This document shows, in pieces, positions 2,036 to 27,466 of a stretch of 33,430 bases of DNA. Made by a program: the position numbers and the translations under genes. Source of the stretch: Magnetococcales bacterium (GTDB lineage Bacteria > Pseudomonadota > Magnetococcia > Magnetococcales > UBA8363). How positions within the stretch are numbered: the first letter of the stretch is position 1; the number at the start of each line of letters is the position of its first letter. Location of the stretch: positions 1 through 33,430 of the forward strand of contig JADGCQ010000037.1 in NCBI GenBank assembly GCA_015228925.1, read 5' to 3'. The notes beneath the pieces are model-generated. The model was not told the DNA's origin, did no database searches, and saw nothing but the letters and a program-made list of their open reading frames with translations.

Positions 2036-2051
2036 GGATACACCCCACTGT

Positions 2052-3152: not shown

Positions 3153-3174
3153 TGCCTCCCCGCATGATCAACCG

Positions 3175-5928: not shown

Positions 5929-5944
5929 GATCTCCAGGCGTCTC

Positions 5945-6604
5945 TCAAAGATTGGCAAGGATCAGCGCCAGTTCGCGCTTTAAAATTAACATGGCCGGTT
6001 TGGAAAATAAAAGTACAACAAAGCCACTCAATGTGTGTTGGGTGTTTTTCTCGTCACTGGTTTTAAAATCCATCATCAACACAAAGGCGCGATCATGATC
6101 CGTGATCTGTTCAAGGATCTCATCCTCTTGTACCATCACATGCGATGTAATATCCAACAGGAACCGACTTGAACCACGTAGAAATTCCGCTTCTTCAAAT
6201 TCAAACTCAAGGCGCAACATTTGGGTAAAACTTTCGAGGAAGGCATTGAGAATGACGTTGCCAACATCCAGCAGGGTTTCCTGTTCCAATTCTGCCAACA
6301 CCTCCAAGGCCATATCCTCACTCAGCAGTGTACGGACAAGTTCCAGGCTTTCGCTCCCTGGGAATACCAGGAGGGCGGTCCCCGTCAATTTTCCCTTGAA
6401 TGTTTGTCGCACGGCCACCAGCTTTTCATCATGCCCCGCCGACAGCATCCGGGTGGCTTCTTCGTAGGGGACCACCCTAAGTTTGGGGAGTTTTAAGAGT
6501 ACTTCGTTATGTACCATCTGGCTCAGGGAATTGGCAGCCATCCCCAGGCCCAGGTTGAAAAATTCCTTGAGAGCGTCCTCTTCCAATTCGCTGAGTAAAA
6601 ACAT
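5945..6604 (-). CDS. CheC-like phosphatase, first copy (219 aa)
   Basis: CheC/CheX/FliY proteins dephosphorylate CheY-type receivers using paired Glu-x2-Asn sites. The first site is E14/N17 in LKEFFNLGLG. The second is D113/N116 in LLDVGNVILN, where aspartate replaces the usual glutamate. Length fits CheC (about 205 in Thermotoga). The start is the ATG at 6604, preceded at a distance of 10 bases by GGAAAGG; a TTG nine bases upstream is too close to that site. With this start the first active-site pair falls at exactly the same residue numbers as in the neighbouring paralogue. The gene ends 17 bases before the hybrid kinase, indicating cotranscription. The altered second site may be weaker. 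Confidence 0.88.
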   Translation of the reverse strand: MFLLSELEEDALKEFFNLGLGMAANSLSQMVHNEVLLKLPKLRVVPYEEATRMLSAGHDEKLVAVRQTFKGKLTGTALLVFPGSESLELVRTLLSEDMALEVLAELEQETLLDVGNVILNAFLESFTQMLRLEFEFEEAEFLRGSSRFLLDITSHVMVQEDEILEQITDHDRAFVLMMDFKTSDEKNTQHTLSGFVVLLFSKPAMLILKRELALILANL

Positions 6605-6651
6605 GAACTGCAAACCTTTCCGTCAATTTGCGCTTGAAACGAAGATGCGGG

Positions 6652-7335
6652 TCAAGTTACGGTAAGTCGATGGATGGCATCCCGGATATAAACTTTAAGA
6701 TCTGGAAGTTTGGCCAAGTCAAGAAAGAGCATCACTTCTCCAGTAATTTCTCCGGTGGAAGTTTTAAAACGGACGTCCAATTGGAGTACCTTGTCTTGTA
6801 GGTGCGGGGGGCGGCGCGAATCGACCCGCTTTGAGGTACCCAGACCATCCCCGCAGTCGGCAATTTTGTTTTTTTCGCGGGCGATACCGATCAAAACATC
6901 CGCCGTGCGATGGATGTGGACTTCGGGAATTTGGGAATCCAGTTCAGTTTCCATCATGTCTGCCAAACTTGCCAAGCATGAATGAAGAATCAGGTTGCCC
7001 AATTCGGAGAGAACGTCCACTTCACTGACTTCAGAACCACTGAGAAGTTCCGTAACGGCCTGACTGCTGGTTTCTGGGACAAATAAAAAGGCATCTCCAG
7101 AAAGGGCGGAGACATTTTTGGCATCCAGGAACGTTTGGCGTATGGTATGCGCCTCGGTGCCAAAGCGCAAACCGCATTCATCGATGGCAGGCCGTTTGGG
7201 TAGAATATTCAAAGAGGGGACGGTGAGCAGCACCTCCTCGCCCAATAGTTCACTTAAGACGGCTGACCCCATTCCCAAACCAATGTTGAATGCTTCGGTC
7301 AAAAGGTCCAGTTCCAATTCGTTCAAAGAACTCAA
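6652..7335 (-). CDS. CheC-like phosphatase, second copy, TTG start (227 aa)
   Basis: Two CheC active-site pairs are visible: E14/N17 in LTEAFNIGLG and E111/N114 in LSELGNLILH, both canonical. Compared with the neighbouring copy it carries an extra charged, Arg-rich loop near residues 165-185 (including CGDGLGTSKR). The start is most likely a TTG at 7335, seven bases after GGGAGG; starting at the TTG at 7350 would place that site inside the coding region. This is the first gene of the five-gene minus-strand operon. Only about ten bases separate its ribosome binding site from a repeat element beginning at 7360. CheC-type CheY-P phosphatase activity is inferred from the motifs; the natural receiver is unknown. 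Confidence 0.86.
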   Translation of the reverse strand: MSSLNELELDLLTEAFNIGLGMGSAVLSELLGEEVLLTVPSLNILPKRPAIDECGLRFGTEAHTIRQTFLDAKNVSALSGDAFLFVPETSSQAVTELLSGSEVSEVDVLSELGNLILHSCLASLADMMETELDSQIPEVHIHRTADVLIGIAREKNKIADCGDGLGTSKRVDSRRPPHLQDKVLQLDVRFKTSTGEITGEVMLFLDLAKLPDLKVYIRDAIHRLTVT

Positions 7336-7359
7336 ACGGTTGCCTCCCAATGAAAAATC

Positions 7360-11212: not shown

Positions 11213-11395
11213 ACGGTCTGTTTCCTTTGTGTCCGTAGCGCCGTTTGGCCACATGCCCATTGCGGTAATCCGCTGGCGGGCGAAACGGCAAGGTTCGAAT
11301 AGGGGGTGAACTTGAAATAAAGAAAAGAATGGGGGATGCAGACAGGGTGGCCATAATCAGGTCCAAGTTCTTAAGGATAATTTTCCATGCCGCTC

Positions 11396-13106: not shown

Positions 13107-13212
13107 AACGCTAAGGGTGGAGAAAAACGGGTGATTGTGGCACTATTTAATTTACCCACGAAGGGTTCTGAAAGGAACAGACCCGGTTGCAGATCCGATA
13201 GCGAGGAAACTT

Positions 13213-14616
13213 ATGATCCCCAAGACACTCTTTGAAAAGATTTGGGAAGAACACCAAATACGCCAGGATGAGGATGGGACATCGCTCCTCTACATCGATC
13301 GTCATCTGGTTCACGAGGTCACTTCACCCCAGGCCTTTGAAGGTTTGCGGCTGAATGGCCGCTCCGTGCGGCAGCCGGGGGCCACGTTTGCCGTCCCCGA
13401 TCACAATGTCCCCACCAAGGATTTGTCCCAAGGGATCCTCGACCCCGTGTCGCGGCTTCAGGTGGAAACGCTGAAAAACAATTGCCGTGAATTTGGCATC
13501 CGTATTTTTGACATGGGAGATCCCCGTCAAGGGGTCGTTCACGTCATGGCACCCGAACAAGGGTTGATCTTGCCCGGTCTCACGGTGGTCTGTGGCGATT
13601 CCCATACCGCCACCCACGGTGCCTTTGGTGCCTTGGCTTTCGGTATTGGCACCTCCGAAGTGGAACACGTCCTTGCAACCCAAACGCTGACCCAAAAACG
13701 TCCGAAAACCATGCGGATCACGCTCAATAACACGCTGGGACCGGGTGTGACCGCCAAGGATATGGTCCTTTATCTGATCGGCCAGATGGGTACCGCTGGG
13801 GGGACGGGGTATGTGGTCGAGTTTGCTGGCGAAGCGGTCCGTACCCTCTCCATGGAAGGGCGCATGACCGTTTGCAACATGGCCATCGAAGCGGGTGCCC
13901 GTGCCGGCATGGTGGCGGTCGATGATCATACCATCGACTATCTGTCCCAACGCCCCTTCGTTCCCAAAGGGAAAGCCTGGATTGAAGCGGTCATTCAATG
14001 GCGTCATTATTGTTCCGATCCTGGGGCGCACTTCGACCGGGAGATCAAATGGGACGCTGGTGTCATCGAACCCCAGGTCTCCTGGGGGACTTCGCCGGAA
14101 ATGATGGCCCCCATCTCCGGGCGGGTTCCCGATCCGCAGCAGGAATCGGATCCGGTACGCCGGGGTTCCATGGAAAAAGCCTTGGCCTACATGGAACTTA
14201 AACCCGGTACCCGGATGATCGATATTCCCATCGATAAGGTGTTCATCGGTTCGTGTACCAATGGTCGTATGGAGGATTTGCGTGCGGCGGCGGCGGTACT
14301 CAAAGACCGCCGGATTGCCAGTCGCATCAAACTGGCCTTGGTGGTCCCCGGCACCGGTTTGGTCAAACGTCAGGCTGAAGAGGAGGGACTTGACCAAATT
14401 TTTATCGCCGCTGGCTTTGAATGGCGGGAGCCGGGTTGTTCCATGTGTCTGGCGATGAATAACGATGTCTTGTCGCCGGGGGAACGGTGTGCCTCCACGT
14501 CAAACCGTAATTTTGAGGGTCGCCAGGGGGCCGGAAGCCGAACCCATCTGGTAAGCCCTGCCATGGCGGCTGCGGCAGCCATCCATGGCCATTTTGTGGA
14601 TGTCAGAGGGGTATAA
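13213..14616 (+). CDS. leuC: 3-isopropylmalate dehydratase large subunit
   Basis: LeuC with LeuD isomerises 2-isopropylmalate to 3-isopropylmalate in leucine synthesis. The 467-residue length matches the family (E. coli 466). The [4Fe-4S] ligands are C348 in IGSCTNGR, and C409 and C412 in [29 protein letters not shown] and the C-terminal [10 protein letters not shown] are family signatures. The ATG at 13213 follows GAGGAAACTT; an in-frame extension to 13135 is unlike LeuC. It heads the block leuC-gst-leuD-leuB-asd. The 106-base gap to the HAD gene could hold a promoter, but I found no leucine-codon leader peptide there. Confidence 0.97.
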
Positions 14617-14641
14617 AATCATCCGTCGAAGGAGTGTCAGC

Positions 14642-15310
14642 ATGGATTTGGAGTTGGTATTATTCAAGGCATGTCCTTTTGCCCAACGGGCGGTCATCGT
14701 GTTGGATTACCTGGAGGTTTCTTATCGCAAAACCCTGATCAACCCGACGGATCGGCCCGACTGGTTGTTGGAAATTTCTCCGATGGGTCAGGTTCCCGTT
14801 CTCAGGATCGATGAGACCCGGGCAATTTTTGACTCGGTGGCCATCGGCGAATTTGTCAACGACATCGCCAATGGCGGACTGTTGGCGTCCGATCCGGTAC
14901 AAAAAGGGGTGGAACGGGCATTGGTCGAATGGGCCGGAACCTGCCAGCGGGCCTTTGGTGAACTGATCACCGCCGCCGATGAGGGGGCTTGGCATCGGGC
15001 GTTGGGCGATTTCACCAACAAACTCTATTGGGTGGAAAAACTGGCCCATGCATCGGGTCCGTGTCTGATGGGCGAAGGGTTTTCCCTGGTCGATGCGGCG
15101 ATGGCACCTTTGTTTATGCGGATGCGCTCCTTGCAAAAGGCGGTCGTCTGCTTCGATGGCGAGGCGACCCCCAAAATTGCCCGTGCTATGGAGAGAATCC
15201 TTGCGACGGCTGCCGTGGTGGGATCGGTGGAAGGGGATTTTGACCGGATGTTGCGTATGGTCGTCCGGGGGCGTGGCAAAGGGGGATACGTCGATTCTCG
15301 TATGGGTTGA
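14642..15310 (+). CDS. Glutathione S-transferase-like protein (222 aa)
   Basis: The N-terminal thioredoxin-fold domain (1-80) carries CPFAQR (11-16), the cysteine motif of omega/SspA/glutaredoxin-like transferases, and the cis-proline loop MGQVPVL. The all-helical C-terminal domain (about 85-200) contains GEGFSLVDAAMAPLF, the N-capping-box region typical of GSTs. Possible roles are glutathione-dependent reduction or an SspA-like transcription role; sequence alone does not decide. The ATG at 14642 has AAGGAG nine bases upstream and lies 25 bases after leuC. Its position inside a leucine operon, between the two subunits of one enzyme, is unusual. Confidence 0.85.
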   Translation: MDLELVLFKACPFAQRAVIVLDYLEVSYRKTLINPTDRPDWLLEISPMGQVPVLRIDETRAIFDSVAIGEFVNDIANGGLLASDPVQKGVERALVEWAGTCQRAFGELITAADEGAWHRALGDFTNKLYWVEKLAHASGPCLMGEGFSLVDAAMAPLFMRMRSLQKAVVCFDGEATPKIARAMERILATAAVVGSVEGDFDRMLRMVVRGRGKGGYVDSRMG

Positions 15311-15313
15311 TTG

Positions 15314-15350
15314 TCCAACCTTTCAATGGGTTGGATGCTATTTTTCTTTT
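15314..15350 (+). terminator. Hairpin with T-rich tract between gst and leuD (terminator or attenuator)
   Basis: TCCAACC (15314-15320) pairs perfectly with GGTTGGA (15329-15335) across an 8-base loop. TGCTATTTTTCTTTT follows at once. It begins three bases after the gst stop and ends ahead of the leuD ribosome binding site. A seven-pair stem plus T-tract resembles an intrinsic terminator, which would reduce leuD relative to leuC. Confidence 0.55.
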
Positions 15351-15367
15351 TCGAGGAGCAAAAGGTC

Positions 15368-16036
15368 ATGGAACCTTTCAGGGTATTGAATGCCGTTGTC
15401 GCCCCATTGGACCGAGCCAACGTCGATACCGATGCCATTATTCCCAAGCAATTTTTAAAATCGATCCAACGGGCCGGTTTTGGACCCAATCTGTTTGATG
15501 AATGGCGTTATCTGGACAAGGGTGAACCGGGAAAATCTTGTCGGGGACGCCCGATCAATCCCGATTTTGTCCTCAACCAGCCACGCTTCAAGGATGCCAA
15601 AATTCTTCTGACCCGCGATAATTTTGGCTGTGGTTCCTCCCGGGAACATGCCCCGTGGGCGTTGTTGGATTATGGGTTCCGGGTTATCATCGCACCCAGT
15701 TTTGCCGATATTTTTTTCAACAATTGTTTCAAGAACGGCATCCTCCCTGTGATTCTGGAGGGCAAAACGGTGGAAACACTGTTGCAGGAAACCATGGCGA
15801 CTCCAGGATACCGATTAACGGTGGATTTGGAATCCTCAATGGTGATAACTTCCGCCGGTCTTTCGTTTGCCTTTACGGTGGGTCCGTTTCAGCGCCACTG
15901 TCTGCTGCATGGGTTGGACGATATCGGTCTTACCCTGGAACATGAGGGTAAGATCAAAGCTTATGAGGTTCAAGCGCGCAAGAACAGACCATGGGCTTTT
16001 ATTCCCGAAGATGGGGATCGCCTTGGGTTTGTTTAG
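15368..16036 (+). CDS. leuD: 3-isopropylmalate dehydratase small subunit
   Basis: This is the swivel-domain partner of Leu[15 protein letters not shown] (about 18-31) and [15 protein letters not shown] (about 80-95) are the hallmark segments that line the active site. At 222 residues it is slightly longer than E. coli LeuD (201). The ATG at 15368 follows GAGGAGCAAAAGGTC; the in-frame region back to 15311 encodes the hairpin/T-tract and is unlike LeuD. The gap to leuB is 34 bases. Confidence 0.96.
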
Positions 16037-16070
16037 ATGATGATCGTGTTGTAATGAAAAGGGTGAGAAC

Positions 16071-17159
16071 ATGACAAGTCAAAAGATTTTGGTGTTGCCG
16101 GGTGACGGTATTGGCCGTGAAATCGTTGCTGAGGCGATGAAAGTTTTGGAATGGGTTGGTTCTCGCCCTGGTGTTTCGTTGCTGATCGAGGAAGGATTGA
16201 TCGGTGGCAGCGCGTATGACGCAACGGGAGGGCCGCTCCCGGAAGAGACGGTGATTCGGGCCAAGAAAGCGGATGCGGTTCTTCTCGGAGCGGTGGGTGG
16301 CCCCAAGTGGGATCGCCTTGATTTTTCCTTGCGCCCGGAACGGGGTCTCCTCGGTATTCGCAAAGCCCTGGATCTTTATTGCAATCTACGCCCGGCGCAA
16401 GTATTTTTGCCGTTGATCGATGCTTCTCCACTCAAGCGGGAGGTGGTTGAAGGGATTGACATCATGGTGGTGCGGGAACTCTCCTCGGGGATCTATTTTG
16501 GTGAACCGCGTGGGGTGGAAACGCTGCCGGATGGTCGTCGGCGAGGGTTTAATACCCTGGTTTATACCACCGATGAAATTGAACGGGTGGCCCGTCGTGC
16601 TTTTGAAATGGCCCGGCGCAGAACGGGTAAACTGTGTTCGGTGGACAAAGCCAATGTTTTGGAATCCACCGCTTTGTGGCGTGAGGTGGTCAGCGAACTG
16701 GGGGCGCGGGATTATGCCGATGTTGCCCTGAGCCATATGTATGTCGATAACGCCGCCATGCAATTGTTGCGCAATCCCCGCCAATTTGACTGTATTGTCA
16801 CGACCAACATGTTTGGTGATATTTTATCCGATGAGGCCAGTATGTTGACCGGTTCCATCGGTATGCTCGCTTCCGCCTCTTTGGGAGATGACAATGCCTT
16901 GTATGAGCCGATTCATGGTTCCGCCCCCGACATTGCTGGAAAAGGGATTGCCAATCCCCTGGCAACGCTATTGTCGGTGGCGATGATGTTGCGTCATTCC
17001 CTGAATTGTCCCGTCGAAGCGGATCTGATCGAAAGAGCGGTCAATCGGGTATTGGGGCAGGGATACCGCACTGCCGACATCATGCAACCCGGTGCCCAGC
17101 AGGTGGGTACGGTGGCCATGGGCGATGCGGTGATGCGGGCACTGCACGGGTTGGAATAA
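16071..17159 (+). CDS. leuB: 3-isopropylmalate dehydrogenase
   Basis: It oxidises and decarboxylates 3-isopropylmalate using NAD, giving 2-ketoisocaproate precursor. At 362 residues the length matches the family. The signatures are [10 protein letters not shown] at the N terminus, [14 protein letters not shown] (substrate loop), [10 protein letters not shown] with the catalytic lysine, YVDNAAMQL with catalytic Tyr/Asp, and [24 protein letters not shown] for NAD/metal binding. The ATG at 16071 is preceded by AAAAGGGTGAGAAC. It is followed by asd after 32 bases. Confidence 0.97.
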
Positions 17160-17191
17160 CGGACGGTTATGCTTTGGCTTGGAGACGAAGG

Positions 17192-18208
17192 ATGAAAAAG
17201 TATAATGTGGCGGTGGTTGGGGCAACCGGCAATGTGGGCCGCGAAATTTTAAAGATTCTTGAACAGCGGGAATTTCCAATCCACCAGTTGCACCTGTTGG
17301 CTTCCGAACGCAGTGCTGGATCGACCATCGCGTTCAACAAGAGGGATTTGGTTGTCAAAGACTTAGCAACCTTTGATTTTACCGGCGTCCACATCGGATT
17401 GTTTTCTCCCGGGGCATCGGTCTCCTCCCGTTATGCCCCCATCGCTGCCCAGGCGGGTTGCGTCGTGGTGGATAATACCTCTTTTTTTCGTATGGATCCC
17501 GATGTCCCCTTGGTGGTGCCGGAAGTCAATCCCCAAGCCATCGCCGGTTATAAGAAAAAAGGGATTATCGCCAACCCCAACTGCTCCACCATCCAGATGG
17601 TGGTGGTTTTGAAACCCATCCACGATGCGGCGGTCATCAAGCGTGTTGTGGTGGCCACCTATCAGGCGGTCTCCGGGGCGGGGAAAGAGGCCATGGACGA
17701 ATTGTTTGAGCAGACACGCAGCATGTTCACTCCTGGCCAGTCGGTCCCCCCGAAAAAATTTGCCAAGGAGATTGCTTTCAACGTGTTGCCGCACATTGAC
17801 CAATTTTTGGACAATGGGTACACCAAGGAAGAGATGAAGATGGTCAACGAGACCAAAAAAATTCTCGACCCCGCCATCCAGGTTGCACCGACGGCGGTGC
17901 GTGTTCCCGTTTTTAATAGCCATTCCGAAGTACTCACGATCGAGACTGAAAAAAAACTCTCTGCCGCCGACGCCCGTAAACTATTGGCACAAGCCCCCGG
18001 GATCATCGTCATGGATGATCCTGCCGCCTTGGTTTATGCAACCCCACGGGACGCTTCGGGCCAGGATGCCACGTTTGTTTCGCGGATTCGTGAAGATGTG
18101 AGCTGTCATCATGGCTTGCAAATGTGGGTCGTTTCAGACAACCTGCGTAAGGGGGCCGCTTTGAACGCCGTTCAAATCGCGGAAGTGTTGATCCACCAAT
18201 ATCTTTAG
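17192..18208 (+). CDS. asd: Aspartate-semialdehyde dehydrogenase
   Basis: It reduces aspartyl-4-phosphate to aspartate semialdehyde with NADPH, feeding lysine/diaminopimelate, threonine and methionine synthesis. The 338-residue protein begins VAVVGATGNVGREIL (NADP-binding). The catalytic cysteine is C131 in ANPNCSTIQM. QAVSGAGKEAMDEL and RVPVFNSHSE, with the conserved Arg and His, follow. The ATG at 17192 is preceded by GGAGACGAAGG. The order leuB-asd-fimV is the same as in Pseudomonas. Confidence 0.96.
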   Translation: MKKYNVAVVGATGNVGREILKILEQREFPIHQLHLLASERSAGSTIAFNKRDLVVKDLATFDFTGVHIGLFSPGASVSSRYAPIAAQAGCVVVDNTSFFRMDPDVPLVVPEVNPQAIAGYKKKGIIANPNCSTIQMVVVLKPIHDAAVIKRVVVATYQAVSGAGKEAMDELFEQTRSMFTPGQSVPPKKFAKEIAFNVLPHIDQFLDNGYTKEEMKMVNETKKILDPAIQVAPTAVRVPVFNSHSEVLTIETEKKLSAADARKLLAQAPGIIVMDDPAALVYATPRDASGQDATFVSRIREDVSCHHGLQMWVVSDNLRKGAALNAVQIAEVLIHQYL

Positions 18209-18301: not shown

Positions 18302-20713
18302 ATGAAAGATTTCGTTAGACCAGGGGGGTGGTCGGTGGGGTTTGTGCTACTGGCCCTCATGGTGTTGCCTTTGCATGTGGCGTGGGGTTTGTCGTTGGGG
18401 GCGTTGGAGGTCCGTAGCCATCTGGGGGAACCTTTCGACGCGATGGTGGCCATCACCTTGGGGGAAAAAGAGGTCGCTATCCCTGTGGGAGCAGCCAAAG
18501 CTATCCCGGAAGATTATCGGCCCCTCAACCTGGAATATCACGAAGTGATTTCCACGCTGTTGTTGGATTTGCAAGGGAAAGGGAGCCAGCGTCGCTTGGT
18601 GATTACGTCCAAGGTTCCTGTCAACGTCCCTTTCTTTAATTTTTTGCTGAAGTTGTCCACGGGACAGGGTGACCATTTTCGCAATTATCCGATCTTCCTC
18701 GAGGTGCGGCCATCCACCCTTTCTGATGTTTTCCAACCCGAAGTCCAGTCGTTGCGCCCCCCGACGATCACCCCCATCGACCAGGGGCGTGGTGAATATG
18801 GTCCTGTTCGTCCTGGTGAAACGTTGTTGGGAATCGCTGATCAATTTGTTGTCCCCCCTTATAGCCGCTACCAGGTCTTGGCTGCGTTTTATGAACTGAA
18901 CAAAGCTCTTTTGGTCAATGGCAACATGAACGGCCTCCCTGTGGGTGTGATCCTTAAAGTCCCCCCTCTGAGTCATGTGGGGGCATTGCGCGGTGATCAG
19001 GCACAGGCTTTGGTTGCTGCGCAACACCGGGATTGGGTGGATGGGGAAAGCAAAGGGCGTGTGGTTTCGACCCGTCCGAAAATGCCTGCCGGAACGGCCC
19101 CATCCAACACGTCGAAGGGCGATGGTCTGCGCAAAACCGATTCCGATGTCCCCAAGCCCCCCTCTAAGAATCCCTCCGCCGCCGCGAAAGACGTTATCGA
19201 CATGCGTTTGACGGTGGCACCATCCGAGAAGGATGACAGTTTGGCGTCGGCCCAACGGATGGCCGATACCCAATCGGCTCAAGGTGACAATACGGCCAAG
19301 GCGGCACCCCAGGCGGACGACAAAACCAAACACAATCAACCCGATTCTGTCCCTGCGGAAACGGTTTTGGCACTCAAGGCCGATGTTGCCAAACTTTCAG
19401 GAATCCCCGAGGCAACGCCAGTTCCTCCCTTGGAACCGAAATCTGGTGAATGGCAGGCTGGGATGGTCGAAGTCGATTCTCTGAAAAAAGATGTGACCAG
19501 GCTTAACGACCAGCTCAAACAAAGTGAAGCGTCACGGACCCATTTGCAATTGCAGATGACCGCTTTGGAGGCCCGATTCAAGAAACTGGAACAGGATCGA
19601 AACCGGAAAGAACCGGAGGTTGTCGCCCCCTTCCCTTGGGAATCCCTGGTGATCGGCGGGAGTGTTGTCGCTCTGGTTACGGGTATTCTTGCATGGTTGA
19701 GCTTTAAAAAGAGACGGAACGTGTGGTCTGCACCTCCGGGGACGACTGCGGAAACGGCGGCGGTGGCACCATCCCATGGCCACCCAACCCTTCCTGGGCA
19801 GGCTCGGGGTGTTCGTGATCATGGGACACCTAGGCCGCAGAGTGATGTGAATGGGGTCGATGCGGGCGTTTTGGGCGTCCTTTCGGAGGGGCTGCCATCG
19901 GTCCCAGAGCAACCGCCCGCCGACGCACTTTCCCAACCTTCCTCTGAGAAACCTTTAGAACGGGAGCCGTGGGAGGCGGAGGAGAGTGCCGAGGTTTCTG
20001 CCGGTCAACGCCATGAAACCTTGGAAGAACAGGTTGGTTCCCCCCAGGCTGTTGTTGAAAACGTCACGGCTGTCATAGATAACAGACCTGTTGTGACCAC
20101 GGCGGCGGTTGATTTGGATGATGATCTGGATGCCGACATGTTGGATTTGGGTGGGGAAGACGAGGCGAAAAATATCTTTAATTTGACAAACGATGATCAA
20201 GTATCTGAAACATCCGGTGGTGTTCTCCTGACGCCGACGAAGGATGATTCTGCGAATATCTTTGACTTGGGCAATGAGGAAACGGACACTCCATCCCAGG
20301 ATTTGGAAAAGTCCGCAGTTCTTATGGAAATTGGCCAGGAGGATGAGGGATCTTCTGCGTTGGCAACGGTGGAAAGTGGTTTGTCGTCTCTTTTGAATGG
20401 GGAAGAAACGGTTGAAGTCACCCCAGTGCGTGGAACGGGTAAACCCCAGGACTATGAAACCATTGTATTTGAACTACCATCCCGTTCAGAACTGGAAGAT
20501 GCAGGAACCTCTCCGAAAGCCAAGCCGATTGAGGTAGAGACCGTTGCTTTTGATCGGAGTGGACCGGACGTGACGGTTGCGAACAAGGCTGAAAAGAGGT
20601 CAACAAAAGAAGGTACTTCTCCATTAAGATCGAACGAGAACCCTTTAGGAAAGGCTGTTGAAGAAGATTCTGATGATGATTTGCTTGAACTTGAATTGAT
20701 TACGGAAGAATAG
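18302..20713 (+). CDS. fimV: FimV-like pole/pilus assembly protein (803 aa)
   Basis: FimV is an inner-membrane protein that, in Pseudomonas, organises the cell pole and type IV pili. A signal peptide (1-29) is followed by the FimV N-terminal domain (about 30-140, starting LSLGALEVRSHLGEPFDA). A LysM-like peptidoglycan-binding segment (166-223, VRPGETLLGIAD to LPVGVILKVPP) comes next. Then there is a Pro/Ala-rich linker, a coiled coil (about 386-436), one membrane helix (448-468) and a 335-residue acidic cytoplasmic tail with the repeated motif NIF(N/D)L. The C-terminal TPR module of Pseudomonas FimV is not visible; the protein ends in DDDLLELELITEE. The ATG at 18302 follows a run of G; a GTG 15 bases upstream is less likely. 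Confidence 0.88.
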   Translation: MKDFVRPGGWSVGFVLLALMVLPLHVAWGLSLGALEVRSHLGEPFDAMVAITLGEKEVAIPVGAAKAIPEDYRPLNLEYHEVISTLLLDLQGKGSQRRLVITSKVPVNVPFFNFLLKLSTGQGDHFRNYPIFLEVRPSTLSDVFQPEVQSLRPPTITPIDQGRGEYGPVRPGETLLGIADQFVVPPYSRYQVLAAFYELNKALLVNGNMNGLPVGVILKVPPLSHVGALRGDQAQALVAAQHRDWVDGESKGRVVSTRPKMPAGTAPSNTSKGDGLRKTDSDVPKPPSKNPSAAAKDVIDMRLTVAPSEKDDSLASAQRMADTQSAQGDNTAKAAPQADDKTKHNQPDSVPAETVLALKADVAKLSGIPEATPVPPLEPKSGEWQAGMVEVDSLKKDVTRLNDQLKQSEASRTHLQLQMTALEARFKKLEQDRNRKEPEVVAPFPWESLVIGGSVVALVTGILAWLSFKKRRNVWSAPPGTTAETAAVAPSHGHPTLPGQARGVRDHGTPRPQSDVNGVDAGVLGVLSEGLPSVPEQPPADALSQPSSEKPLEREPWEAEESAEVSAGQRHETLEEQVGSPQAVVENVTAVIDNRPVVTTAAVDLDDDLDADMLDLGGEDEAKNIFNLTNDDQVSETSGGVLLTPTKDDSANIFDLGNEETDTPSQDLEKSAVLMEIGQEDEGSSALATVESGLSSLLNGEETVEVTPVRGTGKPQDYETIVFELPSRSELEDAGTSPKAKPIEVETVAFDRSGPDVTVANKAEKRSTKEGTSPLRSNENPLGKAVEEDSDDDLLELELITEE

Positions 20714-20741
20714 TTATTCAAAAAGCGGGAAGGGGAATGGT

Positions 20742-21596
20742 GTGACCGCGCAGAGAGTGTTGCTGACAATCTTGGGATGGTTATGGTGTGGCTGTGCCAT
20801 GGCACAGGATGTCGTCTTTGGGCCGGTTGAGGTTGCCAGTGCCATGGGAGAGCCGCTTCATGTGCGGATTCCGCTACAAAGTTCTCCGAAAAGTCCTCTG
20901 GAGAATCTTGAAGTCCTCTGGGGGGTGCCGACCAATTATTCGCATCCGGGTGGGCCTGATTTGACAATCGTCGCACAGTCATCTGCAAGTGGGGGCGTTT
21001 TACTGGTCGATAGTGACCGCAGCATGACCATTCCGTTTTTCACCCTTTTGGTCAAATTTGTCATGGACGGTCAGATTTATATTCAAAATTTTCCAGTTTT
21101 CTTGGGAGATCACGGAAACAATGCCGTTGAGCCAGGGCTAGAGGGTCAGCAATCACCGATGCAATCGGCTGCCCCAAGCCAGGTTTCGACTGCCGAGCCA
21201 TCAGAATCGCCGCTAAAATGGTGGAAAAATGGTGCCATTGGGTTGATAATGATCATTATGTCGGGGATGGTTGCTTATATTTTGCGCAATAAATACCGTA
21301 GTCGTAGCGGCCAAGGATTGAGTCCCCGAGGTTTTTCCCGCAAAAGACCCATGGCGGTTCCCATGGCGACGCGATCTGCCCAGGGTGTTTCGGAATACGT
21401 TTTGCGTGAGGATCCCGATCCCGGTATCGTCGCGTTTGATTCACCGATGGTTGTCCCCGAATCGCATCCAGGGCAACCAACGACTGCCGTGCAGGAGAAG
21501 GAGACGGTACCTGAGGTTTCTGCCAATGCGGTCGCCAAGGGGGTCAAAATTTCTTCTGTCGTTCGGAAGAAAATTTTGGATGTTTCAGAAAAATAA
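20742..21596 (+). CDS. Short FimV-N-domain membrane protein (284 aa)
   Basis: A signal peptide (1-21, ending CAMA) is followed by a domain that parallels the FimV N-terminal domain of the upstream gene. Here GPVEVASAMGEPLHVRIPL corresponds to LGALEVRSHLGEPFDAMV, and IPFFTLLVKFVMDG...NFPVFL corresponds to VPFFNFLLKLS...NYPIFL. There is no LysM segment or coiled coil. A single membrane helix (about 163-182) leads to a basic then Pro-rich cytoplasmic tail of about 100 residues. The start is the GTG at 20742, with GGGGA upstream; a nearby ATG is out of frame. It lies 28 bases after fimV, so this is probably a diverged, trimmed duplicate. Function is unknown; it may act as a periplasmic sensor or FimV partner. 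Confidence 0.8.
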   Translation: MTAQRVLLTILGWLWCGCAMAQDVVFGPVEVASAMGEPLHVRIPLQSSPKSPLENLEVLWGVPTNYSHPGGPDLTIVAQSSASGGVLLVDSDRSMTIPFFTLLVKFVMDGQIYIQNFPVFLGDHGNNAVEPGLEGQQSPMQSAAPSQVSTAEPSESPLKWWKNGAIGLIMIIMSGMVAYILRNKYRSRSGQGLSPRGFSRKRPMAVPMATRSAQGVSEYVLREDPDPGIVAFDSPMVVPESHPGQPTTAVQEKETVPEVSANAVAKGVKISSVVRKKILDVSEK

Positions 21597-21621
21597 GTGA
21601 TCAAACCGCAGCGATGCCCAC

Positions 21622-21639
21622 GCCGTAACCGTTTACGGC
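21622..21639 (+). other. Hairpin ahead of the PilZ-kinase gene
   Basis: GCCGTAA (21622-21628) and TTACGGC (21633-21639) pair perfectly around a four-base loop. No T-tract follows. It lies 38 bases before the start codon and could affect translation or mRNA stability. Confidence 0.35.
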
Positions 21640-21677
21640 ACCCGCACCCGTTACCAACCCATTGACTTCGAGTGTTC

Positions 21678-24600
21678 ATGCCGACTTCTGGACCCGAAAC
21701 CCACCAACATCCGTTGCGGCGCAGTTGGAGCCGAATGGACTACCATGCCAAGGTTGTCCTTGTTTTGGAAGAGGGGTGCGTCATCACCGGGCATACGCTG
21801 GATGTGGGGCTTGGCGGCGTTCTGATTCGTGTCGATAAGGATGCCGCATCCCTCACCGAGGGGCAGAAAGGGGCGTTGCGTTTGGATCCCGATCCTTTTG
21901 GGATGCGTTTTTTTTGCGTCGTCGCGCGGATGGTGAACGATGAAGCTTCTCTTCAATTTATCGATGAAATCAATTCGTTTGGGTTGTATGTCACGCAGTT
22001 TATGATGGTCGATGTGCTGGTTCGGACAGCCGATGCCTTTGCCGCCGCCCCTGGACTGGAAGAGACGATTCAGACAGCCGTTTCCAACATACGCAGTCAA
22101 TTGCAATGCGAAGCCTCTTCCTTGTTTTTGATCGATGATGACGACAAAAACTTGGTGTGCTACGCCTCTTCTGGCCCTGTGGCACTGCTTGGAATCCGCG
22201 TGAGTATCCTTCGGGGGATTGTTGGCCGAACCTATCGGGAGGGGCGTGCCTTTTTAATCCAAGATGTTACAACCGATCCCCATTTTTGTGCGGAAACGGA
22301 CCAACGGACGGGATTTACCACACGCTCTGTCCTGAGTGCCCCCTTGATCATCCAAAATCGGACCATTGGTGTCTTGGAGGTCATCAATAAACGCGGTGAC
22401 GGTCAGTTTGCCAAACATGAACTGTTGGTGCTTACGGCCCTGGCCTCGCAAACGGCCTTGGCTATTTTTAACATACGTCAACGTGAAAAGCTGGATCTTG
22501 CCCGGGCCGCCAGCGAGTCCAAATCGGAATTTCTGGCCCGTATGAGTCATGAGATTCGTACACCCATGAATGCCATTATTGGGTTTACCGATTTGGCGTC
22601 CCGTAAAAGAGCGGATGAGGTTTATGAGTATCTCAGGAAGATTGCGCATTCTTCGCGCTCACTGATGCGTATTATCGATGATATTTTAGATTTTTCAAAG
22701 ATTGAGGCTGGCAAGATTGATTTGCATCCGGTGGACTTCAATCTTCAGGATGTCCTGGATCATATGCAGGAGATATTTTGGAAACAGTCGGAAGATAAAA
22801 ATATCGATCTGATCATACGCATATCGCGGGCATGCCGACTCCCTTTGTATGGTGATGCGCAACGTCTGGAACAGATTCTCATCAATCTTACGAACAATGC
22901 CATCAAATACACCGATTTTGGCGAGGTGGAGATCTCGGTTGCGGTGATCAAACAAACACCAGAGGATGTTGAACTCCGGTTTGCCGTGCGTGATACGGGC
23001 ATTGGTATCGCCGAGGAAGACATTCCCCGTCTTTTCCAATCATTTTCCCAAGTGGATCACTCCCTGACCCGCCGGTTCGACGGTACAGGTTTGGGACTGG
23101 CCATTTGCAAACAACTCGTTGAACTCATGCAGGGTCAGATCGGTGTATCCAGTGCGTTGTACCATGGCAGCACGTTTCATTTTACAGCGGTTTTCAGGTT
23201 GCTTGCGGAGGGGTTGGAAAAGAAGGTCATACCGCCCCATTTCTTGGTAAGTCCGAAGGTTTTGTTGATAGAGCCTTCAGCGACCAGACGTGCGGCCCTC
23301 ACCGATTTTTTGGAATGTCTGGGCATGTCGGTGACCGCAATGGATACTGAACGGGAACCATGCCATACCCAATTGTTGCGCCATTATGAGGGGACGTTGG
23401 CCATTATCGATTTGCCCCGCGCCGAACAACAAGCGTTGGAATTATTGCAACAATTGTATGGTTTTTCCAAGCATCCCTCCGAGAAGGGGGCATTGTCTAT
23501 TATCTTATTGTCACACTTTCACCATGAAATGCATGTGCGCCAACTCGCCGCCGCCACCCCAGGGATCACCATTTTATTCAAACCTGTGGGGACAACGGCA
23601 TTATTGCGGTGTATTCAAGAACTCACGCAACCTATCACCGAATGGGTTTCCCCGGTCGATGAAGACAAACAAGAAGAGCATTTTCGTGTCCGTCAACAAC
23701 TGTATGGTGCCAAGATTCTCCTCGTAGAAGACAATTCCATCAACCAACAGGTTGCGGTTGAATTATTGGAAGAGGTTGGCATGACTGTTCGGGTCGCCAA
23801 TCATGGTGCCAAGGCGGTGCAATGGATCAATACCCATGCTGAGGTTTTTGATTTGGTCCTTATGGACATCCAAATGCCTTTGATGGATGGTTACACGGCG
23901 ACCCGTTTGTTGCGCAACAATCCTGGGAATCAAGATCTTCCCATTGTGGCGATGACGGCCCACGCCTTGAGTGAAGATAGAGACAAATGCCTTGCGGTAG
24001 GGATGAACGATCATTTGGCCAAGCCCATCGAACGGACCAAACTTTATGATATATTGCTCCGTTGGATTGTACGACGGGAAGGTTTGGGGCAGCCGGTGGA
24101 TTCCATCGTCCCTCCCCGTTGCATGGACCATAATACGGCCCATTATGTCCCTTCCATGCCTGGAATCAACATCCAGGAAGCGTTACAGCGTCTTGGCGGC
24201 AATCATAAACTGCTCAGGTCTATACTGAAGGAATTTTACCAGACATTTGCCAACGCGGAAGACAACATCAGACGGGCTATTGTCATCAATAAACCAGAAG
24301 ATATCCAGACTGTTGTGAATGTACTGCATACCATCCGGGGTGTTGCGGGAAACTTTGGTGCCCAGCGGTTATCTCGGACGGTTGCCGAGTTGGAACGGGA
24401 GATCAAGGATACGCAAACAGGTTCTCCAGAGTTACTTCATCAATTTAGTTTGGCTATGCAGGAGGTTTTAAACGCGGTTCGTCGTCTTATCGCGGAAGAA
24501 AAAGGGCAGGAATCCACGGACAACCAGGATGTGTCTGATGAGATTCTTGATAAAGTTGAAATTGCCGCCACCATGAAAGTTTTGGCGAAACGTCTTATGA

Positions 24601-24791
24601 TTAAAAAAATGAGTGCAGAAGAGGCGTATGAAGAACTGAAATCTTTGCTTTCCGGGGCATCTGGTGAGATTAAGAATGCTATGAAAGAGCTGGGTCACCA
24701 TATTGACAGTCTTTCGTTTCGTCTTGCACTGGAGCATTTGGCACAGCTTTACCGGCTTCTTGATATCCCCATGGATGAGTCGCAACAATGA
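21678..24791 (+). CDS. Hybrid kinase, PilZ-GAF-HisKA-HATPase-REC-REC-HPT (1037 aa)
   Basis: The N terminus (about 12-110) resembles a PilZ c-di-GMP-binding domain. It has an RxxxR motif (R15, R19) and LDVGLGGVLI, where the usual D-x-S-x-x-G has glycine (G44) in place of serine. A GAF domain spans about 126-265. HisKA has H291 in RMSHEIRTPMNA, and the ATPase has NLTNNAIKY, DTGIG and GTGLGLA. Receiver 1 (about 525-650) keeps D578 and K635 but has lost one acidic-pocket residue (LIEPSA). Receiver 2 has D730 in LMDIQMPLMDG. HPT has H884 in LHTIRGVAGNFG, followed by a helical tail. There is no membrane segment. The start is the ATG at 21678; a GTG two codons earlier is equally possible because no strong ribosome site is visible. 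It likely signals to the overlapping REC-PP2C gene. Confidence 0.88.
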   Translation: MPTSGPETHQHPLRRSWSRMDYHAKVVLVLEEGCVITGHTLDVGLGGVLIRVDKDAASLTEGQKGALRLDPDPFGMRFFCVVARMVNDEASLQFIDEINSFGLYVTQFMMVDVLVRTADAFAAAPGLEETIQTAVSNIRSQLQCEASSLFLIDDDDKNLVCYASSGPVALLGIRVSILRGIVGRTYREGRAFLIQDVTTDPHFCAETDQRTGFTTRSVLSAPLIIQNRTIGVLEVINKRGDGQFAKHELLVLTALASQTALAIFNIRQREKLDLARAASESKSEFLARMSHEIRTPMNAIIGFTDLASRKRADEVYEYLRKIAHSSRSLMRIIDDILDFSKIEAGKIDLHPVDFNLQDVLDHMQEIFWKQSEDKNIDLIIRISRACRLPLYGDAQRLEQILINLTNNAIKYTDFGEVEISVAVIKQTPEDVELRFAVRDTGIGIAEEDIPRLFQSFSQVDHSLTRRFDGTGLGLAICKQLVELMQGQIGVSSALYHGSTFHFTAVFRLLAEGLEKKVIPPHFLVSPKVLLIEPSATRRAALTDFLECLGMSVTAMDTEREPCHTQLLRHYEGTLAIIDLPRAEQQALELLQQLYGFSKHPSEKGALSIILLSHFHHEMHVRQLAAATPGITILFKPVGTTALLRCIQELTQPITEWVSPVDEDKQEEHFRVRQQLYGAKILLVEDNSINQQVAVELLEEVGMTVRVANHGAKAVQWINTHAEVFDLVLMDIQMPLMDGYTATRLLRNNPGNQDLPIVAMTAHALSEDRDKCLAVGMNDHLAKPIERTKLYDILLRWIVRREGLGQPVDSIVPPRCMDHNTAHYVPSMPGINIQEALQRLGGNHKLLRSILKEFYQTFANAEDNIRRAIVINKPEDIQTVVNVLHTIRGVAGNFGAQRLSRTVAELEREIKDTQTGSPELLHQFSLAMQEVLNAVRRLIAEEKGQESTDNQDVSDEILDKVEIAATMKVLAKRLMIKKMSAEEAYEELKSLLSGASGEIKNAMKELGHHIDSLSFRLALEHLAQLYRLLDIPMDESQQ

Positions 24792-25918
24792 TTTCTCCCC
24801 TTTCCATGCCACGGGTATTGATTGTTGATGATGTCCCTGGAAACATCAAGATGCTGGCGTCCATTCTTTCGGATCATTATGAAATATTTTTTGCCACATC
24901 GGGGGCGGAAGCCCTTGAATTATTATCCAGTCAGGATGTTGATATTATTTTGCTGGATATTGTGATGCCAGAGATGAATGGTTACATGGTTCTTGAGAAA
25001 ATCAAGTCAGATACACATCTGAGAGATGTTCCCATCATATTTCTTTCTGCCCGGAATGCTCCCGAGGATGAGGTGCATGGGTTACAAATGGGTGCGGTAG
25101 ACTATATCACAAAGCCTTTTTCGTCTGCGGTGGTCAAAGCCCGTGTCAATACCCAATTGACCATGAAGAACATGAATCAGCAACTGGCTGAACTAACCAA
25201 TGAGTTGCTGGCTGAGCGTCAATTTATTGAGTCTGTTGTCCAGAATATGGTGGGATCCGTTGCAGTGAATGGTCCACAGATCACGTATTGGATGAAGCCG
25301 GTGGAGAAGACCTCTGGCGATCTTCTGATGGTGGCCAAAGGAAAGAATAATGTGCAATATTACTTTCTGGGTGACATTACCGGTCATGGTTTATCATCGG
25401 CGGTTGTTGGGCCGATTATTTCCTATATTTTCTACTCTATGACGGATCGTGGTAGTTCTCTGTTGGATATTATTAACGAACTGAATCATTATCTTGTAGC
25501 CAAGTTACCGCCCAATGTTTTCCTTGCAGGTTGTTTCATCGCTGTGGATATGGAAGAGAGTCGCATGGAAGTATGGAATTGCGCCATGCCGGACCTATTG
25601 GTGTTTCGGAATGAGATGTTGTTATGCCGCATCCCTTCTCATTTTCAACCTTTGGGTATACTCATCAGCCATTATGGAGATCCCGAAATATTGGAATTAT
25701 CAAAGAACGACCAAATCTTTCTGCTTTCCGACGGTTTGGTCGAGGTTTACAATAGCCATGGCCAGGAATTTGGGATTGAACGATTGGTTGGTGTCATTGC
25801 CAACATGGTGAAACAAAATCAGCCGTTGCAATATGTTCATGATCATTTGATGAAATATAATGATTCTGGAAGACAGAAGGATGACATGACCATTGCTCGA
25901 ATTTCCATTGTTCAATAA
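24788..25918 (+). CDS. Response regulator with PP2C (SpoIIE/RsbU-type) phosphatase domain (376 aa)
   Basis: The receiver domain (about 9-125) has D14/D15, phospho-acceptor D57 in ILLDIVMPEMNG and K in ITKPF. A short coiled linker follows. The SpoIIE-type PP2C Ser/Thr phosphatase has metal-binding aspartates in KTSGDLL, LGDITGHG, LLSDGLVE and QKDDMT. Such proteins usually dephosphorylate an anti-anti-sigma (STAS) protein in a partner-switching module; no STAS or anti-sigma gene is in the window, so the substrate is unknown. Its ATG overlaps the TGA of the kinase gene (ATGA at 24788-24791), implying translational coupling and matched amounts of kinase and regulator. Confidence 0.92.
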   Translation: MISPLSMPRVLIVDDVPGNIKMLASILSDHYEIFFATSGAEALELLSSQDVDIILLDIVMPEMNGYMVLEKIKSDTHLRDVPIIFLSARNAPEDEVHGLQMGAVDYITKPFSSAVVKARVNTQLTMKNMNQQLAELTNELLAERQFIESVVQNMVGSVAVNGPQITYWMKPVEKTSGDLLMVAKGKNNVQYYFLGDITGHGLSSAVVGPIISYIFYSMTDRGSSLLDIINELNHYLVAKLPPNVFLAGCFIAVDMEESRMEVWNCAMPDLLVFRNEMLLCRIPSHFQPLGILISHYGDPEILELSKNDQIFLLSDGLVEVYNSHGQEFGIERLVGVIANMVKQNQPLQYVHDHLMKYNDSGRQKDDMTIARISIVQ

Positions 25919-26032
25919 GTGGCATCTCAACGATGTTATTGAAGGATTTTGGGTCACCGAGTTGACCGAAGCGGAGGTCCGATCCTGGCGTCTACCCCAA
26001 AACATGCGCCGCTGGGGCCGAAGGAGGAGAGC

Positions 26033-26410
26033 GTGAACATCCAGCAGCATGTGGATTATTGGCGCAAGGGGTCGGATGAGGATGCCGAAACTGCCGCCAT
26101 CCTCCTCGAAAAGGCCAAACTGCGGGAAGGGATCTTCTTCGTGCATCTTTCGATGGAGAAAATTCTCAAGGCGCATATCACCCGCACCACGGACGCGCCG
26201 CCGCCCAAAAGCCACAATCTGGTCCAACTGATGCAGTGCGCCGGGTTGTCCCTTACTCAGGAGTGGTTGGGACTCTTTCGCGTGTTGAACAGCTACTGCA
26301 TGGAAGGACGCTACCCCGACCAAGTGGCTCCGCCTCCCGTGCCACAGCGGGCAAGGGAGATTTTCCAACAGGCCGAGGAGGTCCGCAAGTGGTTGATCGC
26401 GCAGTTGTAG
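26033..26410 (+). CDS. HEPN-domain protein, module 1 (125 aa)
   Basis: This is a small all-helical HEPN protein of the nucleotidyltransferase-associated group. VDYWRKGSDEDAETA, the central FFVHLSMEKILKAH helix, SHNLVQLM and the late GRYPD motif are characteristic. The GTG start at 26033 has an ideal AAGGAGGAGAGC ahead. A classical R-x4-6-H ribonuclease motif is not obvious, so nuclease activity should not be assumed. Its last 22 bases overlap the nucleotidyltransferase gene in another frame. It is likely one half of a toxin-antitoxin-like or antiphage pair (inference from the family). Confidence 0.85.
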   Translation: MNIQQHVDYWRKGSDEDAETAAILLEKAKLREGIFFVHLSMEKILKAHITRTTDAPPPKSHNLVQLMQCAGLSLTQEWLGLFRVLNSYCMEGRYPDQVAPPPVPQRAREIFQQAEEVRKWLIAQL

Positions 26411-26718
26411 AAGCAGTACACCAGTATATGCGCGTGTTGGATGCCGAAGGAATCCCGGTGGCGTTCTCTGTGCTGTACGGTTCTTTTGCCCGTGGGGAGG
26501 AACATGAATGGAGTGATATCGACCTTATGGTGGTCTCTCCCATGTTTGATCAGGAAAAACGTCGTGAAGATATCGATCATCTCTGGACGGCTACCCTGGA
26601 TGCGGATGTCCGCATTGAGCCGGTGGGTATTGGTCTGAAACAATGGTGCGAGGATGATGGCATTCCTCTCATCGAAATCGCCCGCCGCGAAGGGCAGATC
26701 ATTTATCCTCACCCATAA
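26389..26718 (+). CDS. Minimal nucleotidyltransferase, module 1 (109 aa)
   Basis: This is a MNT-type polymerase-beta-fold protein. VLYGSFARG, then SDIDL, gives the GS...DxD active site, and RIEPVGI supplies a downstream acidic residue. The start was assigned to the GTG at 26389, seven bases after GAGGAGG. This makes the protein exactly as long as the second copy and aligns without gaps from residue 1 (61 of 109 identical by eye). In related systems the MNT protein modifies its HEPN partner with AMP and neutralises it; that activity here is inferred. Confidence 0.85.
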   Translation: MVDRAVVEAVHQYMRVLDAEGIPVAFSVLYGSFARGEEHEWSDIDLMVVSPMFDQEKRREDIDHLWTATLDADVRIEPVGIGLKQWCEDDGIPLIEIARREGQIIYPHP

Positions 26719-26771
26719 ACCGGAAGGCTCACTATGGGTTCCAGGGTGTTGTCTACGCGAGGAAAGAAAAC

Positions 26772-27170
26772 ATGAGCCTCAATGTGCAAGCCCAGGTGGA
26801 TTATTGGCGCATCAGCTCCGATCAGGATTGGGCCGTGGCCGTGGGTCTGATCCAGCGTGGCAGCCAGCGGCATGGCCTATTTTTCCTCCATCTGTCTATG
26901 GAAAAGCTTCTTAAGGCGCACGTTTGCCGGGTGACGGGAAATTATCCACCAAAAATTCACAATCTGCTGAATCTGAGAGAAAAAGCCGGCTTGACCCTGT
27001 CAGGGGATGAAACGGAACTGTTGGGACGCATGAATGCCTTCTGCATGATCGGTCGTTATCCTGACGACCCGGTGATTGAAACGATTCCTCAACAAGTCGC
27101 CCAGCATTATGTCGTCGAGGCTGGAAAGGTGCGAACATGGTTACTTCAGAAGTTGTCGCAATCATCATGA
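26772..27170 (+). CDS. HEPN-domain protein, module 2 (132 aa)
   Basis: A diverged paralogue of the first HEPN gene. VDYWRISSDQDW, FFLHLSMEKLLKAH, KIHNLLNL and GRYPDD align with the first copy, while the N and C termini differ more. The ATG at 26772 follows GAGGAAAG. The gene overlaps the second nucleotidyltransferase by 34 bases. The same reserve about nuclease motifs applies: no R-x4-6-H is evident. Confidence 0.85.
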   Translation: MSLNVQAQVDYWRISSDQDWAVAVGLIQRGSQRHGLFFLHLSMEKLLKAHVCRVTGNYPPKIHNLLNLREKAGLTLSGDETELLGRMNAFCMIGRYPDDPVIETIPQQVAQHYVVEAGKVRTWLLQKLSQSS

Positions 27171-27466
27171 ACTACCTTGAATTTCTGAAGAAGGATGGTA
27201 TGCCTGTCGCTTTTGGCGTCCTGTTTGGCTCGCAGGCTCGTGGAGGGGCCACGCCCGATAGCGACTTCGACTTGGTGGTGGTCTCTCCTCTTTTCGACAA
27301 TGCCGAACACTGGAGCGATACCGAACGCCTGTGGACAGCAACGGTTTACACCGACTCCCGCATCGAGCCGATTGGGGTTGGTGTGAGACAATGGGAAGAA
27401 GATGACCGATTGCCCATCATCGAAATCGCCCGCCGCGAAGGCCAGATCATTTACCCCCACCAATAA
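27137..27466 (+). CDS. Minimal nucleotidyltransferase, module 2 (109 aa)
   Basis: The active-site segment is VLFGSQARG followed by SDFDLVVVS, giving the GS...DxD pattern, with RIEPIGV downstream. The last dozen residues, IEIARREGQIIYPH, are identical to module 1, whereas the first 20 differ strongly. The ATG at 27137 lies within the end of the HEPN gene. The gene converges on yejB, 38 bases away. Confidence 0.86.
   Translation: MVTSEVVAIIMNYLEFLKKDGMPVAFGVLFGSQARGGATPDSDFDLVVVSPLFDNAEHWSDTERLWTATVYTDSRIEPIGVGVRQWEEDDRLPIIEIARREGQIIYPHQ

Follow-up and report, generated by a model that had tools for sequence, protein, structure and literature searches.

Genes at the fimV locus

We analyzed a 33,430-nucleotide stretch of DNA (the window) from a Magnetococcales bacterium (assembly GCA_015228925.1, contig JADGCQ010000037.1; contig C150 of genome G000, which comprises 4.25 Mb in 219 contigs), with a focus on four consecutive genes encoding a FimV/HubP-like protein, a shorter FimV relative, a hybrid histidine kinase, and a phosphatase that joins a receiver (REC) to a PP2C domain. 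A first-pass annotation made from the sequence alone had read these genes as one envelope-sensing pathway ending in Ser/Thr dephosphorylation. Open reading frames and Pfam/NCBIfam domain calls bore out the four same-strand genes, their named domains, and the ATGA overlap that joins the last two. Judging from their neighborhoods in related genomes, however, the four genes are two separate modules that happen to be neighbors here, and the kinase and phosphatase probably belong to a partner-switching circuit whose remaining components are encoded at a second, magnetosome-linked locus. The main features are as follows (aa, amino acids; TM, transmembrane):

13135–18208, + strand: leuC, an unknown 241-aa gene (14585–15310), leuD, leuB and asd; conserved left neighbors that anchor the fimV module in this order
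18302–20713, + strand: fimV; 803-aa FimV/HubP-like protein with a signal peptide, FimV_N (aa 30–134), LysM/FimV_core (aa 173–245) and one TM segment
20742–21596, + strand: short fimV; 284 aa, with a signal helix, a FimV_N-like Ig domain (aa 26–118), a TM helix (~157–188) and a disordered tail
21672–24791, + strand: cytoplasmic hybrid histidine kinase, 1039 aa; GTG start, or ATG at 21678
24327–24329, + strand: codon for the phosphorylatable His of the Hpt domain, H886 (numbered H884 if translation begins at the ATG, 21678)
24788–25918, + strand: REC-PP2C, an RsbU/HsbR-type phosphatase of 376 aa; REC 10–120, SpoIIE/PP2C 193–371
24956–24958, + strand: codon of the receiver phospho-acceptor, D57

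Both FimV-type proteins are membrane proteins with FimV periplasmic domains, as first proposed. In the longer one, FimV_N scores 63 bits (cut-off 27) and FimV_core/LysM (TIGR03505) 46.5 bits (cut-off 43.45), and the cytoplasmic tail is long and acidic, ending in ..LELELITEE; a similar ELELITEE-type end occurs in the same-genus genomes G007 and G002. The short protein reaches 26.5 bits with FimV_N, slightly below the cut-off, and has no LysM/FimV_core match. Its identity is independently backed by homologs (38–49% identical) that adjoin fimV in six same-genus genomes and by a low-confidence AlphaFold model in which a signal helix and an Ig-like sandwich precede a TM helix and a tail without order. 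Foldseek searches with this model retrieved Ig-like folds of a generic kind and nothing at E ≤ 0.001. No model of the C-terminal TPR (FimV) domain matched either protein at E 0.01. The two fimV genes of the asd-fimV-short fimV module specify a polar membrane protein of the FimV/HubP type and a truncated version that accompanies it. The window FimV resembles the FimV/HubP polar landmark proteins in its Ig-like FimV_N domain, LysM, single TM segment and acidic cytoplasmic region; it differs from them in having no detectable C-terminal TPR/FimV domain and in being followed by a second, short FimV_N protein that lacks LysM (PMC12918733).

The kinase comprises PilZ (16–99), GAF (129–265), HisKA (283–347, with H293), HATPase (394–505), a degenerate receiver (~530–650), REC (682–794) and Hpt (851–934) domains. 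The domain list first given for this protein therefore stands, with two amendments: the first receiver is degenerate, and the second PilZ motif deviates. Because the first receiver lacks the acidic pair, it is probably a pseudo-receiver. In the PilZ domain the RxxxR motif (R17–R21) is present and retained in all five orthologs, but the D/NxSxxG motif reads D/N-VGLGG, and this replacement of Ser by Gly in all five orthologs makes binding of cyclic di-GMP (c-di-GMP) doubtful. An AlphaFold model of the PilZ-GAF region, built on an alignment of two sequences only, had a pLDDT of 31, too low for use. The Hpt histidine was originally numbered H884, which holds from the ATG and becomes H886 from the GTG start; D57 of the phosphatase was given correctly. 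The nearest named relatives of the kinase are Magnetococcales metagenome-assembled genomes, the closest being JADFZF010000168.1. Two further PilZ-GAF hybrid kinases in G000 (C164:65584, L181; C197:56477, L182) are ~40% identical to it, so that these kinases form a small paralog family in the genus.

The phosphatase matches the SpoIIE profile at 99.6 bits (cut-off 25), and its metal-binding Asp motifs (SGD, GDITGHG, SDG and KDDMT) are all present and invariant in six orthologs. An alignment likewise showed the catalytic residues of both the kinase and REC-PP2C to be invariant among orthologs. The 376-aa protein stops after the PP2C domain and so has no kinase/anti-sigma domain of the HsbR/CrsR type; RsbW is encoded by a separate gene.

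Neighborhoods of the two gene pairs in related genomes

We compared the window genome with seven others of the same genus (G001–G007). The orthologs come mostly from draft assemblies, with completeness of 99% for G006, 95% for G002 and 78% for G004; the genome tree was ((G003,(G001,G005)),(G000,G004),(G007,(G002,G006))), in which certain internal nodes are weak. The fimV-short fimV pair follows asd in six of the seven relatives (G001, G002, G003, G005, G006 and G007), in none of them with an adjoining kinase. Orthologs of the kinase (55–62%) and of REC-PP2C (68–73%) are adjacent to each other in G001, G003, G005 and G007, each time on a different contig from the fimV pair; including the window, this adjacency occurs in five of the eight genomes, which confirms the two genes as a real unit. 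G006 keeps the fimV pair and has no ortholog of the kinase or of REC-PP2C, and G002 keeps it without a kinase ortholog, REC-PP2C being present. As the pairs sit apart in relatives and the fimV pair persists without the kinase, the neighborhoods argue for two modules. The first-pass annotation had named a failure of the four genes to co-occur elsewhere as evidence against a common pathway, and we found all four together in no other examined genome. It had also likened the leuCDB-asd-fimV order to that of Pseudomonas, where truA follows. The leu genes and asd do precede fimV, but an unknown gene stands between leuC and leuD, and truA as the next gene is ruled out, being unlinked to fimV in all seven genomes searched. 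The intervening 241-aa gene holds this position throughout the genus, as well as in G015, G024 and G028, and has no NCBIfam match at E 1e-20.

Within the window, 28 bp separate fimV from short fimV and 75 bp separate short fimV from the kinase gene. Promoter and terminator matches in the latter interval showed no excess over shuffled sequence, and a transcriptional break there is therefore unsupported. A large MscK/KefA-type mechanosensitive channel gene lies directly 3′ of the kinase-PP2C pair in G001, G003 and G005, and with one gene between in G007; the same channel gene follows fimV-short fimV-GT4 in G002 and G006, and this GT4 gene is found upstream of the kinase in G007. Since both pairs adjoin the same channel gene in different genomes, they were probably neighbors in an ancestor, for which the order fimV-short fimV-GT4-kinase-PP2C-channel is plausible. 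This shared neighbor is a matter of history and gives no evidence of a common pathway. The upstream neighbor of the 1130-aa channel gene (L177:5327–8716, L170:12294–15752, L207:2120–5500) varies, and is a PilB/GspE-like ATPase in the window genome and G004.

Elsewhere in the window, the phosphatase gene is followed (25949–27466) by two successive pairs of HEPN and minimal nucleotidyltransferase (MNT) genes that resemble HEPN/MNT toxin-antitoxin systems; each MNT protein has a weak match to PDC-S09, a candidate family in PADLOC. Positions 1475–7350 encode CheD, a REC-histidine kinase, a 927-aa kinase with an Hpt domain and a CheC-like protein, alongside an RNase E gene (8660–11260).

A STAS protein and an RsbW-type kinase at a magnetosome-linked locus

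The first-pass annotation had suggested a search for a STAS substrate of the phosphatase. None was found within the window; a candidate emerged from G002, in which a REC-PP2C ortholog (66%; next paralog ~36%), unaccompanied by a kinase, directly precedes a gene for a 102-aa STAS protein. Orthologs of this protein (61–65%) are present in G000, G001, G003, G004, G005 and G007. Other STAS matches in these genomes are at most 38%, and the best in G006 is 31%, with no ortholog. The G000 gene lies on another contig (C172:15957–16262; STAS 39 bits, cut-off 22.6). The SIDSAG motif, whose Ser54 is the SpoIIAA/RsbV phospho-position, is invariant in all seven proteins. With this concrete candidate, the proposed output by Ser/Thr dephosphorylation of a STAS protein is well supported.

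In all seven loci mamD, scoring well above its 100-bit cut-off, lies ~1 to 1.6 kb after the STAS gene, followed in G000, G001, G005 and G007 by a MamB/MamV-like cation transporter. Further along in G001 are MamH (637 bits, cut-off 300), MamK (498, cut-off 400) and MamM (370, cut-off 350), and MamK is also found in G002. We call the STAS locus magnetosome-linked because of these genes and the nearby mamD in every case; magnetosomes serve these magnetotactic bacteria as an internal compass. The STAS-mamD segment of G007 is a small stretch between genes recognized by eye as ATP-synthase on one side and rpsB-tsf-pyrH-like on the other, so the main magnetosome island may be elsewhere in that genome.

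A 310-aa protein consisting of REC and an RsbW-type HATPase_c_2 domain is encoded a few kb from the STAS gene where the contigs extend far enough, in G000, G001 and G004 (in G000 at C172:8465–9394; HATPase_c_2 39 bits, cut-off 27.4). Its orthologs (67–96%) occur in exactly the seven genomes that have the STAS gene, and their N-box is invariant. The gene next to REC-RsbW encodes a membrane protein of 1183 to 1188 aa, which in its 1183-aa form gave no confident Pfam match and no PDB relative. In G002 this large gene is interrupted where two contigs end, with residues 1–792 on C32 and 822–1142 on C116. As both contigs break inside the same 1188-aa gene, RsbW, PP2C, STAS and mamD would lie within ~10 kb of one another there, given a join that we infer between contig ends sharing no exact overlap. 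Large membrane proteins of 1183–1675 aa are encoded beside REC-RsbW at L235:2476–6027, L246:13484–17047 and L263:320–5347. Also beside the magnetosome-linked REC-RsbW is a giant protein of 1850–2632 aa (L250:1197–9796; also L251 and L252), whose N-terminus in G002 is a MotA/ExbB/TolQ region of the ZorA type (PADLOC E 7.8e-25); a ZorB/MotB-like protein (1.2e-18) and a TPR-SPOR protein are encoded next there. In strain UR-1, EH-signature, MotB and apolipoprotein-domain genes lie between mamD-like and feoA1 (PMC6783814), and these may encode a Zorya-like motor of the kind seen here.

Homologous arrangements were also found outside the genus. In G019, from another family of the order, one strand carries in order a hybrid kinase (PAS, HisKA, HATPase, two REC, Hpt), a REC-PP2C that is the closest homolog outside the genus (40%), a REC-RsbW, and a 1675-aa homolog of the RsbW-linked large protein (581 bits, with an extra PilZ-like stretch). 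This operon is the cleanest independent evidence on the partners of the kinase-PP2C pair. REC-PP2C and REC-RsbW homologs are also adjacent in G023, G024 and G039, and in G028 with a weakly scoring STAS gene between them; in G015 the best homolog of the window PP2C is 0.4 kb from a mamD gene.

A putative partner switch and its relation to known systems

These linkages suggest that the kinase-PP2C pair, the STAS protein and REC-RsbW probably make up a single partner-switching circuit distributed over two loci, of which one is magnetosome-linked. An intracellular signal perceived at PilZ-GAF would set autophosphorylation of the kinase at H293, and phosphate would then pass to the second receiver, to H886 of the Hpt domain, and on to D57 of REC-PP2C. 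Phosphorylation of D57 would alter the phosphatase activity with either sign, as there are precedents for both: it activates HsbR (PMC6482189) and inhibits RsfR (PMC10950880). REC-PP2C would dephosphorylate Ser54 of the STAS protein and REC-RsbW would re-phosphorylate it, leaving free STAS or free RsbW to act on a target that is probably local; candidates are a sigma factor, the 1183-aa membrane protein and the ZorAB-like motor. A broader proposal, to which we give somewhat less than even weight, is that a dedicated phosphorelay and Ser/Thr partner switch governs magnetosome-linked functions in a genus of Magnetococcales. In it, the kinase and REC-PP2C at one locus would control how far the STAS protein beside mamD is phosphorylated, and REC-RsbW, the large membrane protein and the ZorAB-like motor would be its local partners.

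Several observations weigh against the circuit. PP2C is not beside STAS in six of the seven relatives that carry the STAS gene. Gene content, domains, conserved catalytic residues and linkages are observed; all the reactions of the circuit, from phosphotransfer to dephosphorylation, are inferred, as are the sign of the D57 effect and the output. The joint absence of STAS, RsbW and PP2C from G006 may be a single loss, because in its sister G002 the PP2C gene has moved into the magnetosome region, and this weakens the phylogenetic profile as independent evidence. G006 nevertheless retains a MamD-MamK-MamB region, and the switch is thus not needed for having mam genes. G004 has STAS and RsbW and no match for PP2C or the kinase, probably because it is 78% complete, and the presence of PP2C without a kinase ortholog in G002 means that another kinase must feed it there. 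G000 has 33 Hpt genes and, besides this phosphatase, about six SpoIIE genes, so cross-talk or other pairings are possible. Two other PP2C genes (C149, C120) and small STAS genes (C2, C137) likewise have no adjacent partner, and these two phosphatases could possibly regulate the same STAS protein.

This abundance of paralogs leads to the most serious alternative, in which the kinase and REC-PP2C are unconnected with magnetosomes and act on another STAS protein or on a stress sigma factor encoded locally, and the magnetosome-side STAS protein uses another phosphatase. Each genome has several SpoIIE and STAS genes, some SpoIIE genes sit beside a STAS gene of their own (C186, C141, C44), and close linkage of PP2C to the magnetosome STAS gene is confined to G002, apart from the PP2C-mamD neighbors of G015. 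The adjacency in G002 nevertheless involves orthologs on both sides, and the G019 operon joins a hybrid kinase, REC-PP2C and REC-RsbW to a homolog of the magnetosome-locus RsbW neighbor; we consider this alternative rather unlikely, though it deserves more weight than the two that follow.

The original proposal, that the kinase receives its input from the membrane through FimV and short FimV in a four-gene envelope-sensing pathway, draws on the common strand, the short gaps and the ATGA overlap, and on the shared channel neighbor and GT4 gene that suggest one ancestral cluster. This arrangement is not conserved among the seven same-genus genomes. Among the genomes examined, only the window has the full set side by side, four genomes carry the pairs on separate contigs, the fimV pair persists without the kinase in two nearly complete ones (G006 and G002), and in G019 the kinase module shares an operon with RsbW and another protein rather than with fimV. 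We therefore set this pathway aside as improbable. Even less credible is the idea that REC-PP2C is an RssB-like adaptor that delivers a sigma factor to proteolysis and has no phosphatase activity. It matches the RssB model (NF045505) and the RssB structure 3eq2 along REC and the PP2C-like fold, but the former match scores 69.7 bits, far under that model's 700-bit cut-off. RssB adaptors have a PP2C-like domain without metal-binding residues, and the intact, invariant Asp motifs of REC-PP2C, together with its strong SpoIIE score, speak strongly against this identity.

The preferred reading, a partner switch split between two loci, would bear on the regulation of magnetosome formation and use in magnetotactic cocci, which are mostly uncultivated and in which this regulation is little known. 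If correct, it would provide a first circuit of post-translational control at a magnetosome-linked locus, in which sensor kinase, phosphatase, substrate and opposing kinase can all be named. As the components are named, each step is accessible in vitro with purified proteins, even though the organisms are known here only from assemblies. The analysis also illustrates that adjacency in one genome can mislead, as the link to FimV dissolves on comparison and the likely partners are found on other contigs.

Circuits of REC-PP2C, STAS and RsbW are already known (HsbR-HsbA, CrsR-CrsA, SypE-SypA, RsfS-RsfR). As far as the literature searched shows, neither the layout of two regulators, in which both enzymes bear a REC domain, nor the magnetosome link has been described; no paper in that search joined the magnetosome with partner switching or a STAS domain, and the sole match for an anti-sigma antagonist or PP2C was an unrelated Leptospira paper. 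The HptB-HsbR-HsbA system of Pseudomonas aeruginosa is similar in that hybrid kinases and an Hpt step phosphorylate a REC-PP2C regulator, whose dephosphorylation of a STAS protein is counteracted by a kinase of the RsbW type; there, however, the kinase/anti-sigma domain is part of the HsbR polypeptide and HptB is a free Hpt protein, whereas here REC-RsbW is separate, the Hpt domain lies inside the hybrid kinase, and the STAS and RsbW genes are in a magnetosome-linked locus (PMC6482189). In CrsR-CrsA of Shewanella and SypE-SypA of Vibrio fischeri, REC, PP2C and RsbW-type activities likewise set STAS phosphorylation, and the output of SypA is not a sigma factor; the activities there reside in one three-domain regulator rather than in two regulators with one REC each (PMC6482189, PMC12826045). 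RsfS-RsfR of Mycobacterium smegmatis has the same two-gene layout as the kinase-PP2C pair, a histidine kinase with a receiver-PP2C that dephosphorylates an anti-sigma antagonist, and differs in that RsfS is not a hybrid kinase, phosphorylation lowers RsfR activity, and the sigma-F output is known (PMC10950880).

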